This document shows, in pieces, positions 3,424 to 14,980 of a stretch of 39,658 nucleotides of DNA. The stretch is taken from positions 1 through 39,658 of IMG/VR virus record IMGVR_UViG_3300040801_002884, one strand, 5' to 3'. The notes beneath the pieces are model-generated. The model was given only the letters and a program-made list of their open reading frames with translations. It was not told the DNA's origin and searched no databases. A program made the position numbers and the translations under genes. This DNA comes from a virus. The number at the start of each line of letters is the position of its first letter. The first letter of the stretch is position 1.

Positions 3424-4163
<740 letters not shown>

Positions 4164-4178
4164 AAAGTCAAAAAGGTG

Positions 4179-4207
4179 TTGACAAATGTCTCCTGATTTA
4201 GTATAAT
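4179..4207 (+). promoter_or_regulatory. consensus sigma70 promoter, class A
   Basis: TTGACA at 4179-4184, 17-base spacer, TATAAT at 4202-4207. Nearly identical to the promoter at 2000-2028, including the AAAAAGTCA segment upstream of the -35 box and CTCCTG and TTTAG in the spacer. Drives the 52-residue peptide and radical SAM genes. Confidence 0.85.
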
Positions 4208-4248
4208 CCCTGTATATCATGAAGATTAATATTAATTCGGAGTACATT

Positions 4249-4407
4249 ATGAAACAGTCTTTTGACGAATATCTTGCTGAACTTGAAGAGAAAGAAGAAC
4301 GAAAAGAATATGAATCCCGTTATGACGGTTCCTATCAGGCTTCTAAAGGTGATTATGAAGGAGCCATATATGCTCGTGATGAATTTAATTCAGGGAGGAT
4401 TTCATAA
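4249..4407 (+). CDS. 52-residue acidic peptide coupled to the radical SAM gene
   Basis: A very charged peptide. Residues 5-20 form a Glu/Lys-rich helix (DEYLAELEEKEERKEY) and the C-terminal half is rich in Tyr, Ser, Gly and Asp (SRYDGSYQASKGDYEG, then AIYARDEF). No Cys. The ATG at 4249 has GGAG six bases upstream; an in-frame ATG at 4219 is too close to the promoter. The stop codon shares one base with the ATG of the radical SAM gene, so the two are translationally coupled. Could be a partner or a modified substrate of that enzyme, or simply a small early protein. Confidence 0.65.
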   Translation: MKQSFDEYLAELEEKEERKEYESRYDGSYQASKGDYEGAIYARDEFNSGRIS

Positions 4408-5111
4408 TGTATCTTCAGATCACGACTAAATGCAATATGACTTGTGAACATTGTTGTTTTTCTTGTTCAATGAATGGTAAACACGGAGACTATGACACTA
4501 TTCTAGAGGCAATAAATTTTGCCGCTGAGGAAGACTCAGAATTTATCACTATAGGAGGAGGTGAACCGACTCTTCATCCGAGATTCTTTGATATTCTTGA
4601 AAGATGCTTAAAAAGATTTGATCACGTCTGGTTCGCAACTAATGGAAGTGTTACCGAATCAATGTACCGGATTCATAATATTATGCAGGATCAAGATTAT
4701 GAATCTTTTGAATGCACCTGTACTGAAGAAGATCTTGAATATTATGAGTGTGAATGTGATCATCAGGTGATTTATTCAAACAGTAAACTTGCTGTTGATA
4801 TATCTTCTGATCATTATCATGATCCCATAGATGAAAGGGTTGTCAATCTCTGGAAAAGAATGTCTAAAGATAATCATAACTACAATTTTAGAGATGTTGC
4901 ACACAGCGGCGGAGGAGTTTCCAATCAGGGAAGGGCTGCAAGAACTGGTGCCGGTCAGGGAAATCATTGTGTTTGTAGTGACATCATAATAAAGCCAGAC
5001 GGAAGACTAAAGATGTGTGGATGCCATTTCTCTCCAATTATCGGTGATATCTGGAGAGGCATTTCTAAAGAATATGATTATCATTATAACACTTGTTACA
5101 GAGAAATTTAA
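4407..5111 (+). CDS. radical SAM enzyme with Cys-rich insert and SPASM-like C-terminus
   Basis: A 234-residue radical SAM protein. CNMTCEHC (Cys9, Cys13, Cys16) binds the 4Fe-4S cluster; GGGEPTLHP (about residues 50-58) is the SAM-binding motif; FATNG (76-80) and DISSDHYHD (131-139) match later strands of the barrel. A Cys-rich insert with CTC and CEC lies near 103-117, and the C-terminus has Cys188, Cys190, Cys204 and Cys206 around IKPDGRLKMCGC, resembling a SPASM/twitch auxiliary cluster. At 234 residues it is short for a SPASM enzyme. Substrate unknown. The overlapping acidic peptide upstream is the only clue; nucleotide-, peptide- or tRNA-modification are all open. Confidence 0.8.
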   Translation: MYLQITTKCNMTCEHCCFSCSMNGKHGDYDTILEAINFAAEEDSEFITIGGGEPTLHPRFFDILERCLKRFDHVWFATNGSVTESMYRIHNIMQDQDYESFECTCTEEDLEYYECECDHQVIYSNSKLAVDISSDHYHDPIDERVVNLWKRMSKDNHNYNFRDVAHSGGGVSNQGRAARTGAGQGNHCVCSDIIIKPDGRLKMCGCHFSPIIGDIWRGISKEYDYHYNTCYREI

Positions 5112-5186: not shown

Positions 5187-6533
5187 ATGAACGAATTGAA
5201 ACTCCCCAAAAATGTTCAACTTATCGGGTACGCTCTTATAGCCGCCGGATATCCCACATATCTTGTTGGTGGTGCAGTTAGAGATTTCATCATGGGAAAT
5301 GAACCCAATGATTTTGATCTTTGTACAAAGGCTAAGCCAGGCGAAATCATCGAAGTAATCACAAAATATTTTCCTCTTTCTAAAGTGAACTTTGTCGGTT
5401 CATCTTTCGGTATCATTATTTGTGATGGAATTGAAATCGCTACTTTTCGTGGTGATAGATATTTGAATGATGGTGATGATAAAAATGTAGACATCAGTTA
5501 TGTTGATACTATTGAAGAGGATCTTGCCAGACGAGACCTGACAATAAATGCCATTGCTATGGACTTTAACCGTGAATTAGTAGATCCTTTCGGTGGTCTG
5601 AATGACATCAATAATAAACTGATTCGGTTTGTCGGAGATCCTAATGAAAGAATCAATGAAGATTATAATCGTATTATAAGGGCTTGTAGATTTGCCGCTA
5701 GATTTGATTTTCTTTTTCATGATGATACCGTCGATGCTCTTATTGATAACAGAAAAAAGATATCAAAAATCAAACCCGAAAGAATCCAGAAAGAAATCTT
5801 AAAAGCAATGGAGTTGGATGAACCTTCACTTTTTTGGGATTTGCTCAGAACTTTGGGTTTCTTTGAAATCTACTTGAAAGAAATGAACAGATCATATGGT
5901 TTTGACGGCGGAAAGCATCACGCTGAAACTGTTTGGGAACATATGATGGCAGTTGGTGATGCTCTGTCTCCTAATGATCCTATTCTCAGACTTGCTGGAT
6001 ATCTTCATGACATTGGTAAGCCCAAGGCATATGACGGAGAGAGATTTGTCGGCCATGAGAAAGAAGGTCAGTTGATTCTTTTGAATGATCTGAAAGAACT
6101 GAAGTTCTCTAATAAAGATATTGAAAGAATTTCCGGTCTTACTCGTGCACATATGTATCTTTTGAAGTTTATTTCTTCAAAGTCAACCAGAAAACTGAGG
6201 AACAAAATCAATACACTTGGGATTGATTGGCGAGATCTTACTCGATTGAGAATTGCTGATGCTAAAGGGAACTTTAAATCTGCAAATGAAACTATTTCTG
6301 GTGTTAAAGAGATAGTTAAAACATTTACTCTTGTTGAAGAAGAGCCGGTTAATTTGAATTCTCTTGCGGTTTCTGGTGGTCAGTTGATCAAAGAACTTGA
6401 ACTTACTCCAGGACCGATTGTTGGTGAAATCCACAGGGAGTTGTTTGACTTCTTTATTGAAACCGGTGTGGCTGATGAAGATTGCCTTCTTCTGGAGAGT
6501 GTGAGAATTCTCAAAAATAGATCTAATCTATAA
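5187..6533 (+). CDS. cca: CCA-adding tRNA nucleotidyltransferase with HD domain
   Basis: A 448-residue class II nucleotidyltransferase that builds or repairs the 3' CCA of tRNA using CTP and ATP. Visible motifs: GGAVRD (28-33), the catalytic DFD pair (Asp42, Asp44), RRD at 115-117 for base selection, DPFGG near 133 and the NEDxxRIIRACRFAARF segment near 157-173. An HD phosphohydrolase domain follows (HDIGK, His274-Asp275), as in E. coli-type enzymes with 2',3'-phosphatase activity. Length fits the full-size family. The ATG at 5187 has TGAGG upstream. The gene's stop codon overlaps a tRNA gene without encoded CCA, so phage enzyme and phage tRNA are co-transcribed. Confidence 0.93.
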   Translation: MNELKLPKNVQLIGYALIAAGYPTYLVGGAVRDFIMGNEPNDFDLCTKAKPGEIIEVITKYFPLSKVNFVGSSFGIIICDGIEIATFRGDRYLNDGDDKNVDISYVDTIEEDLARRDLTINAIAMDFNRELVDPFGGLNDINNKLIRFVGDPNERINEDYNRIIRACRFAARFDFLFHDDTVDALIDNRKKISKIKPERIQKEILKAMELDEPSLFWDLLRTLGFFEIYLKEMNRSYGFDGGKHHAETVWEHMMAVGDALSPNDPILRLAGYLHDIGKPKAYDGERFVGHEKEGQLILLNDLKELKFSNKDIERISGLTRAHMYLLKFISSKSTRKLRNKINTLGIDWRDLTRLRIADAKGNFKSANETISGVKEIVKTFTLVEEEPVNLNSLAVSGGQLIKELELTPGPIVGEIHRELFDFFIETGVADEDCLLLESVRILKNRSNL

Positions 6534-6631
6534 AACAGTGGCGGAACTGGTAGACGCACATAGCCCTTGACGCTATGATTCGCGCTGAGTGATCATAAGC
6601 AAGAATGCAGGTTCGAATCCTGTCTGTTTTA
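6532..6631 (+). tRNA. class II tRNA, Leu-like body, anticodon ambiguous
   Basis: A 100-base tRNA that starts inside the TAA stop of cca. Acceptor AAAACAG (6532-6538) pairs with CTGTTTT (6624-6630), discriminator A6631, no encoded CCA. T arm GCAGG-TTCGAAT-CCTGT (6607-6623) is canonical. The D arm (GCG...TGGTAGACGC) is very like bacterial tRNA-Leu. The anticodon arm is CATAGC/GCTATG with loop CCTTGAC (6565-6571): six pairs and C33, or five pairs and a nine-base loop. In the seven-base loop the anticodon would be UUG; other registers give UGA; no Leu anticodon fits. The 29-base variable arm (6578-6606), closed by ATTC/GAAT, is longer than usual. It may be functional but unusual, or decayed. Confidence 0.75.
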
Positions 6632-6665
6632 TTTTCTTATATTGTATCTTTTGTTCATTTTTATG

Positions 6666-6693
6666 TTGACATAACCTCATAATATGTTATAAT
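6666..6693 (+). promoter_or_regulatory. extended -10 promoter
   Basis: TTGACA at 6666-6671, 16-base spacer, TATAAT at 6688-6693, with TG one base before the hexamer. The spacer has CCTCATAAT as in the class B promoter at 17970. Drives genes from 6742. Confidence 0.8.
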
Positions 6694-6720
6694 GAACCAT
6701 AAGATTGAGATTGAGAACAA

Positions 6721-6745
6721 AACAAATAAGGAGACTTTATTATGA
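6721..6745 (+). repeat. duplicated translation leader, copy 1 (copy 2 at 6896-6920)
   Basis: The 25-base leader AACAAATAAGGAGACTTTATTATGA style segment occurs twice, 175 bases apart, before the genes at 6742 and 6917, with 23 of 25 bases the same. Each copy has AAGGAG eight bases before the ATG. Suggests tandem duplication of a translation-initiation cassette. Confidence 0.8.
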
Positions 6746-6894
6746 TGTATGCATTGTTTATATTAGATTTACTTTCTGTTTCTATAGACGACGGTGATTA
6801 TCCTTCACATGAATCTTCTCTGTTTTGGTTAGATATCGCTTACTCCATATCTGCTGATCAGCGGGATATAGTTTCTGAGTTGGCTCACGGTTGA
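6742..6894 (+). CDS. 50-residue hypothetical protein
   Basis: A short protein: hydrophobic N-terminus (MMYALFILDLLSVSI), an acidic middle with DDGDY, then a helix ending SAHG-like (SADQRDIVSELAHG). Excellent ribosome site (AAGGAG, eight bases upstream) and own promoter make it a likely real gene despite its length. No family recognised. Confidence 0.6.
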   Translation: MMYALFILDLLSVSIDDGDYPSHESSLFWLDIAYSISADQRDIVSELAHG

Positions 6895-6916
6895 TAACAA
6901 ATAAGGAGTTTTTATT

Positions 6917-7156
6917 ATGAAAAGAACAGCAAGAAATGAAATCTACAAAAATGTTGTCAAATATAATGGTGTTTGCCATGCCGGAACAATTAGTCAAGAT
7001 ACCGGATATACCATTCAGACTGTTAAGAAACATATAAAGAATTTCATGAAAGAGGGCAAAATTGAGAATATTCCTTGTCCTAGTAGCGGTAAAGATTGCT
7101 ACTATATTGTGATTCGGAATTATGTTATCAATGATAATCTTGATGCTACAGAATAA
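6917..7156 (+). CDS. winged helix-turn-helix DNA-binding protein
   Basis: A 79-residue protein with a wHTH pattern: helix 1 (RNEIYKNVVKYN), a helix-turn-helix (AGTISQDTGYTIQTVKKHIKNFMKEG), then a strand/wing region (KIENIPCPSSGKDCYYIVI). The recognition helix would be about residues 32-44. Length is that of a small single-domain regulator. It lies behind its own promoter with a copy of the preceding leader, so it may control early phage or host genes; the target is not visible. Confidence 0.65.
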   Translation: MKRTARNEIYKNVVKYNGVCHAGTISQDTGYTIQTVKKHIKNFMKEGKIENIPCPSSGKDCYYIVIRNYVINDNLDATE

Positions 7157-13853: not shown

Positions 13854-13929
13854 AGGGGTGTAACTCAATTGGTAGAGTACGTGGTTTTGAGCCACGCTGT
13901 TTTCAGTTCAAATCTGAACACCCCTTCCA
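13854..13929 (+). tRNA. tRNA-Gln (anticodon UUG), CCA encoded
   Basis: Standard cloverleaf: acceptor AGGGGTG/CACCCCT (13854-13860 with 13919-13925), D arm ACTC/GAGT, anticodon arm CGTGG/CCACG with loop TTTTGAG (13885-13891), anticodon TTG at 13887-13889, A37 at 13890, five-base variable loop, T arm TTCAG-TTCAAAT-CTGAA. T73 is followed by CCA (13927-13929). Bacterial tRNA-Gln usually has G or A at 73, so U73 is unusual. Reads CAA, and with wobble CAG. The RlmN-like gene follows at once. Confidence 0.93.
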
Positions 13930-13945
13930 TTTTAAATTTAATATA

Positions 13946-14980
13946 ATGTATTCTATGCTATCTCTATTTTCTAAAAAGCAAGATCTTCCTAAATCAGTCG
14001 CTGAACTATTTTACAACAAAGAAAAAACTGTTTGTAAAGTAGTTCACAAGTCTGGTGCTGAAACCACTATCAAAACAAATCAATCCTGTGACGGTACAAC
14101 AGATCCTAAAAAAGTTGTTGTCTTCATATCATCTTCAGTTGGTTGCAACCAGGGTTGCAAATTTTGCTATTTAACAGCAAAGAAATATCCTTACTGCAAA
14201 CTCAGTGAAACGATTATCATCAAAAATACTCTTGATGCCATCACCGCCTGTCAAGATCTGATAAAAGGCAAATATTTAAAGTTGTCTTTCATGGGAATGG
14301 GTGATGTCTTTTATGAAAATCTTAACATCAAAACTATAGTAAGAAACATATTTAAGGTTCTTTTGATTGATAAGGAGATAGAAGGAATTGATGGTGTTGA
14401 TATTGGAACATGCATGCCTAATACAAGTTTCTTAGAAAATAAGATTGTAGAAATTAGTAAATTAAATAAATATCTTTTTGAAAATTATTTTCTTTACTTT
14501 AATCCAAAAAATGTGTATACTGATATAGTAATGAATAAATTCGGAAATGTTTTTCCGAGGACTCCTGTTAGATTATTTGTTTCTTTAAGTACTGTTGATC
14601 CCGGAGTAAGACATTATTTAATGCCTAACTCAATTGATATTATAGATCTGGAAAATATTCTTGATGAAGTTGATACTAATATAATTTTTCATTGTATGTT
14701 TTTTGAAGGATTAAATGATTCATTTTTTTATCTCAGAGATTTAAAAGAATTTGTGAAAAAACACTACGGATCGGAATTAAGAATACTGAGATTTAATAAA
14801 TGTTCTAATGATGTAACTTTAAATGAATCTCCTAATTTTTGGAGAATAATCGATTATTTTAAAAATGATAAAGATATTAGATTTAAATATCAGATATCAA
14901 CTGGTAAAGAAATTCAAGCATCATGCGGACAATTCATTTGTAAAAATTGTAAAGATATATTAATACGGGAGGATGTGTAG
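13946..14980 (+). CDS. RlmN/Cfr-like radical SAM enzyme lacking the second mechanistic Cys
   Basis: A 344-residue radical SAM protein with the RlmN/Cfr methyltransferase signature. Residues 58-74 (VVFISSSVGCNQGCKFC) carry the CxxxCxxC cluster (Cys67, Cys71, Cys74); LSFMGMGDVFYENL (about 113-126) matches the SAM-binding FMGMGEPLxNYxN motif; RLFVSLSTVDPGVRHYLMP matches the xAISLHA...R..xMP strand; FEGLNDS matches the GVNDS motif; QASCGQF (Cys327) is the C-terminal CGQL motif carrying the methyl-accepting Cys. The other conserved Cys, seven residues before the first cluster Cys (E. coli Cys118), is Phe60 here. RlmN methylates C2 of A2503 in 23S rRNA and A37 of some tRNAs. Extra Cys333 and Cys336 are odd. 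The start ATG lacks a clear ribosome site. Confidence 0.85.
   Translation: MYSMLSLFSKKQDLPKSVAELFYNKEKTVCKVVHKSGAETTIKTNQSCDGTTDPKKVVVFISSSVGCNQGCKFCYLTAKKYPYCKLSETIIIKNTLDAITACQDLIKGKYLKLSFMGMGDVFYENLNIKTIVRNIFKVLLIDKEIEGIDGVDIGTCMPNTSFLENKIVEISKLNKYLFENYFLYFNPKNVYTDIVMNKFGNVFPRTPVRLFVSLSTVDPGVRHYLMPNSIDIIDLENILDEVDTNIIFHCMFFEGLNDSFFYLRDLKEFVKKHYGSELRILRFNKCSNDVTLNESPNFWRIIDYFKNDKDIRFKYQISTGKEIQASCGQFICKNCKDILIREDV

Follow-up and report, generated by a model that had tools for sequence, protein, structure and literature searches.

A mostly phage-borne family of RlmN/Cfr-like radical SAM proteins that keeps the methyl-carrier cysteine and lacks the counterpart of RlmN Cys118

Class A radical SAM methylases are defined by two conserved cysteines (PMC9692996). 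In RlmN and Cfr, one of these carries the methyl group (Cys355 and Cys338, respectively), while the other (Cys118 and Cys105) is now seen mainly as a general base that deprotonates the adenine carbon, whereupon the crosslink between enzyme and RNA falls apart (PMC9692996, PMC13001441). The earlier view of Cys118 as a disulfide-forming ‘resolving’ residue has been largely superseded by this general-base role (PMC9692996). The second cysteine is regarded as indispensable, and its removal traps the enzyme on its RNA, the adduct being captured when Ala or Ser occupies the position (PMC9692996, PMC13001441). Other elements serve substrate recognition or radical chemistry: the N-terminal HhH2 domain binds RNA in both enzymes, Arg327 of Cfr contacts the ribose of A2503, Met95 and Tyr97 of Cfr belong to a strand packing on the target adenosine (PMC13001441), and Met176 of RlmN is a proposed stabiliser of the cysteinyl radical (PMC9692996). 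No description of RlmN-like proteins without Cys118 was found in the open-licence literature searched.

The window analysed here is a viral stretch of 39,658 nucleotides (IMG/VR record IMGVR_UViG_3300040801_002884), whose phage, judging from its gp32-type SSB, baseplate wedge and tail tube genes, is a T4-like myovirus. It encodes an RlmN/Cfr-like radical SAM protein of 344 residues, P0001, in an intact ORF (13946..14980; this and all features of the window given below lie on the plus strand). An earlier note on this DNA had read in the ORF a Cys67/71/74 cluster, the motifs FMGMG and SCGQF, and a Phe at the place of the second cysteine, all of which are borne out. Alignment with RlmN and Cfr places Phe60 (codon 14123..14125) exactly at Cys118/Cys105 and the methyl-carrier candidate Cys327 (14924..14926) at Cys355/Cys338. 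In E. coli RlmN numbering, the CX3CX2C cluster cysteines Cys67, Cys71 and Cys74 (14144..14167), invariant in all rows, correspond to Cys125/129/132, Met116 to Met176 and Asn284 to Asn312.

The affinity to RlmN and Cfr proposed in the earlier note holds at the level of fold and family, but P0001 reaches no curated cut-off for either enzyme. The RlmN model TIGR00048 matches it with E 4e-13 and 49.1 bits against a cut-off of 290, while NF000424 gives 25.1 bits (cut-off 530) and TIGR04432 19.6 bits (cut-off 550). On its own, P0001 has a single sequence-level PDB match below E 0.001, namely Cfr (PDB 9p0p); profile A3 matches RlmN/Cfr chains with E 2e-55 to 4e-64, and the homologue from phage 201phi2-1 matches RlmN with E 5e-16. 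The region aligned by the profile begins at RlmN residue 83 and Cfr residue 71, and the N-terminal HhH2 domain is absent. Structurally, the AlphaFold models (pLDDT 81.5 for P0001 and 92.9 for the 201phi2-1 homologue) point to the same relatives, each having RlmN as its first PDB match. For P0001, Foldseek ranks the crosslink of C118A RlmN with tRNA highest (5hr7, E 4e-12), and the best ten PDB matches are RlmN and Cfr, with TMq of 0.60 at best for P0001 and up to 0.76 for the 201phi2-1 homologue.

Queried singly against viral and genome contigs, P0001 returned no relative, and alignments were required; among annotated phages, the only tblastn match is BBK09218.1 of Klebsiella phage 05F01 (34%), with Val at position 60. 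This protein, together with profiles, served to collect about 90 related loci by search patterns that did not include position 60. A large clade carries Tyr at this position in every row (72 loci; 43/43 non-redundant rows), and its members include phages 201phi2-1 and D6, Caulobacter phages CcrPW and CcrColossus, Brevundimonas phages and many uncultured large or jumbo phages. Phe occupies the position in the window protein and in L170, L172-L177, L178 and L179, Ile in L180-L182, and Val in 05F01. A third phage clade (Tunturi_5, L088, L184-L187) has Cys, as do phage RlmNs outside it, 22 of 22 RlmN rows and 79 of the 80 sampled relatives on bacterial contigs. Among the last, only L090 differs: it is of the Tyr type and sits among bacterial genes on a contig of a Planctomycetota MAG, the single such case among 199 Planctomycetota genomes sampled; the family is thus mostly, not strictly, viral. 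A search for a plasmid homologue found none. As judged from these alignments, the missing Cys118 is a family trait accompanied by retention of the carrier cysteine, and its replacement in P0001 is more than chance, substitution by Phe, Ile or Val being fixed in its own clade and Tyr in a sister clade.

Two of these loci have neighborhoods of separate interest. In L090, the Tyr-type gene (3971-4906) is divergent from an AbiEii nucleotidyltransferase toxin gene, and the same genome holds a second, weaker match elsewhere that may be an ordinary RlmN. In 05F01, the Val-type gene (L001 6674-7954) follows an ‘ADP-ribosylation’ gene and precedes an anaerobic ribonucleotide reductase gene.

The individual clades are well supported in the tree (Tyr 100/100, Phe 99/97, Phe plus Ile/Val 100/100, phage-Cys 99/97, RlmN 100/99), whereas their order is not. 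The first tree joins the window clade to the Tyr clade at 91/54, and a larger tree gives a different order at 88/65. The placement of PHROG 27142 beside the window protein accordingly combines a profile match (phrog_27142, E 2e-9) with this 91/54 join, in a clade order that shifts with more rows. A single origin of the Cys118 loss has a p-AU of 0.43, which singles out neither one loss nor several.

The general-base role of Cys118 means that candidate substitutes extend beyond cysteine to residues such as Tyr and His. At position 60 itself, Tyr could serve as the base; Phe, Ile and Val cannot. Within the Phe subclade, candidate substitutes are Cys48 (14087..14089) and Cys286 (14801..14803), each conserved in 6/6 Phe-subclade rows and in 0/3 Ile/Val rows; the latter carry Cys63 instead, a contrast that may stem from one tree split. 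Cys286 lies two residues past Asn284, while Cys48 sits in a low-confidence loop (residues 47-51) that replaces the second beta-prime strand and occupies the place of the RlmN/Cfr strand that packs on the target adenosine. Cys114 is present in part of the Phe and part of the Ile/Val members. His249 (14690..14692) is a family-wide candidate, invariant in all phage clades where RlmN rows have Glu in 21/22. A role for His249 as compensation for the cysteine loss was rejected, since the Cys-bearing phage clade has it too, which makes this residue older than, or independent of, that loss. Beyond the cluster and carrier cysteines, the alignments contain no thiol conserved family-wide. The earlier note had named the two cysteines of the CKNC tail as candidates for the replacement, numbering them 333 and 336; they are Cys332 and Cys335 (14939..14950), they occur in the window protein and in no relative, and the model of the tail stays under pLDDT 50, so this proposal is dropped. 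Its broader suggestion of a different finishing chemistry is a fair inference from the loss of the Cys118 equivalent and the retention of the carrier.

With Cys118 lost and the carrier kept, the family must either finish the reaction another way or consist of no ordinary methylases. We give about an even chance to the reading that P0001 is an RlmN-type RNA methyl synthase, with tRNA as the probable substrate, and that another base or thiol opens its intermediate. P0001 resembles RlmN in fold and probably in the first half-reaction, and the cluster cysteines, Met176, Asn312 and carrier Cys355 are shared by P0001, the Tyr clade and RlmN. In the proposed sequence, Cys327 would be S-methylated, a second SAM would turn S-methyl-Cys327 into a methylene radical, and this radical would add to an adenine of an RNA. 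Less certainly, some other group would then take the place of Cys118 in deprotonating and opening the crosslinked intermediate. This group may be the invariant Tyr at the Cys118 place in the Tyr clade, and Cys286, Cys48 or the family-wide His249 in the Phe subclade.

Genomic neighborhood analysis suggests which RNA could be involved. A tRNA-Gln(UUG) gene (13854..13929) ends 16-19 bp upstream of the P0001 start codon, a gap that the script used for the random-placement test put at 17 bp (p 0.002). RlmN of E. coli accepts tRNA-Gln(UUG) as a substrate (PMC5130265), but the phage anticodon loop UUUUGAG, with A37 and G38, differs by its G38 from the loop tested for E. coli RlmN. The same phage encodes a CCA tRNA nucleotidyltransferase (5187..6533), a further tRNA-related context. 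Under the same random placement, the nearest tRNA gene lies at a distance of 14 bp in L178 (p 0.001), 128 bp in L176 (p 0.005), 414 bp in L170 (p 0.06) and 24.5 kb in L179 (p 0.35), so that a tRNA gene lies within 14-414 bp in 4/5 sampled Phe-subclade lineages. The five p values, combined by hand with Fisher's method, give about 3e-6, a figure that is suggestive only because the choice of subclade was made post hoc and tRNA genes are grouped in accessory clusters. The Ile/Val members lie at least 40 kb from any listed tRNA gene, and the Tyr-clade phages 201phi2-1 and L080 have zero tRNA genes. RtcB and tRNA genes accompany the family gene only in the phiKZ-like group, and no partner gene is conserved across deep lineages. 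For the Phe subclade, this context suggests a tRNA substrate, perhaps A37 of phage or host tRNAs.

Several further features were observed in these contigs. In the window, a tRNA-like gene at 6532-6631 (Rfam 42 bits, missed by ARAGORN) has a long variable arm and a D-arm like that of tRNA-Leu; its anticodon loop is apparently of 9 nt (CCCUUGACG), or of 7 nt with C33 and the anticodon UUG. A second, unrelated radical SAM protein (4407-5111) is encoded directly 5' of the CCA-adding enzyme gene. The viral contig L170 carries a tmRNA (6531-6926; tag peptide VSIKFRSSFLQNYVVEGDG) in the tRNA cluster adjoining its Phe-type gene. On the jumbo-phage contigs L058 (2153-2227), L068 and L075 (both 1865-2020), one or two tRNAs with a CUA anticodon (called tRNA-Pyl) suggest amber-codon reassignment.

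A different radical SAM chemistry, or a different substrate, on an RlmN fold with a C-terminal cysteine is unlikely; in that case, Cys327 would serve to donate a hydrogen atom or to bind, not to carry a methyl group. The second cysteine, the N-terminal RNA-binding domain, the R-N-L motif that follows the cluster in RlmN and the ribose-contacting Arg are all gone. The counterpart of Cfr Arg327 is Gln in the window clade and Ile or Val in the Tyr clade (Gln, Ile, Val or Tyr overall), and SLH is replaced by SLY (Tyr clade) or SLS (window protein). Because the substrate residues differ in this way from RlmN/Cfr and the RNL motif and HhH2 are missing, the target may be no RNA adenosine at all. The 49 of 290 bits against TIGR00048 are consistent with such a departure, as is a relative in Moorella phage MTATph1 (L015 2878-3702), an RlmN-like protein in which Gly stands in the position of Cys118 and the C-terminal carrier cysteine is missing, which indicates that the fold is usable without both mechanistic cysteines. 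Against a different chemistry, however, nearly all rows retain the [AS]CG[QMT]F motif and the Met176 position, and no constraint is apparent for a carrier cysteine that bore no methyl group, although some rows were fetched through their SCG motif, which biases the count of Cys327 conservation upward.

It is improbable that the phage protein is a one-shot inhibitor or tag that, like the C118A variant of E. coli RlmN, remains bonded to RNA, here by a thioether-methylene bridge to one particular adenine of host or phage origin. The residue lost is exactly the one whose mutation traps the RlmN/Cfr adduct while the carrier stays (PMC9692996, PMC13001441), and the Ile, Val or Phe found at position 60 is unable to act as a base. 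The invariant Tyr of the big clade, by contrast, points to a function in chemistry or packing and not to the mere removal of the cysteine, and the Phe and Ile/Val subclades have extra, subclade-specific cysteines. An adduct has no positive support, and a single-copy suicide protein of ~300-345 residues would be a costly inhibitor. There is similarly little to recommend an ordinary RlmN function in which a thiol supplied in solution or by a partner such as thioredoxin or glutathione stands in for Cys118. A thioredoxin-like gene does lie less than 4 kb away in three Tyr-clade loci, but partner genes are not conserved across lineages; moreover, loss of Cys118/Cys105 abolishes RlmN/Cfr activity according to published work cited in PMC9692996, so small thiols are, on that account, evidently insufficient in these enzymes.

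A decayed, non-functional gene is very improbable. The window protein sits on a long branch (1.29 changes per column), which would fit this reading, but its ORF, cluster and carrier cysteine are intact. For the family, strong purifying selection in close pairs of relatives (dN/dS 0.04-0.15) shows that the Cys118 replacement is not decay; distant pairs, among them window versus L170 (0.47), are too diverged to judge.

Whether the intermediate is opened by another residue, as preferred here, or by other means, a widespread natural family with Tyr, Phe, Ile or Val at this position and the methyl carrier retained offers a test of whether Cys118 acts as a general base, as a partner of the radical or by forming a disulfide. 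The family also directs attention to a so far unstudied step of RNA modification or RNA capture in jumbo phages, among them the laboratory-grown isolate 201phi2-1; capture, if true, would mark or disable a specific adenine of a host or phage RNA.

Because the second cysteine and the N-terminal domain are missing and no curated cut-off is reached, P0001 is assigned to neither RlmN nor Cfr but to a variant family next to the two. With RlmN (TIGR00048; E. coli, PDB 3RFA, 5HR7), its best solved-structure match, it shares the radical SAM barrel, CX3CX2C, FMGMG with the Met176 equivalent, the Asn312 equivalent and the C-terminal CGQ[F/L] with the carrier cysteine. Unlike RlmN, it is without Cys118, HhH2, the ribose-contacting Arg, the RNL motif and the Glu at position 249. 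The same features are shared and missed relative to Cfr (NF000424 / TIGR04432, PDB 9p0p). The examined members of PHROG 27142 (‘Fe-S-cluster redox domain-containing’; 201phi2-1 gp434 and jumbo-phage relatives) likewise lack Cys118 and keep Cys355, but they have Tyr rather than Phe, Ile or Val, MARG rather than MGMG, and none of the extra conserved cysteines. Finally, the Cys-bearing phage clade (Tunturi_5 gp170, L088, L184-L187) resembles P0001 in His249, in C-[HYW]-[LT]-T after the cluster and in CG-x-F at the carrier, and differs from it in retaining Cys at position 60.
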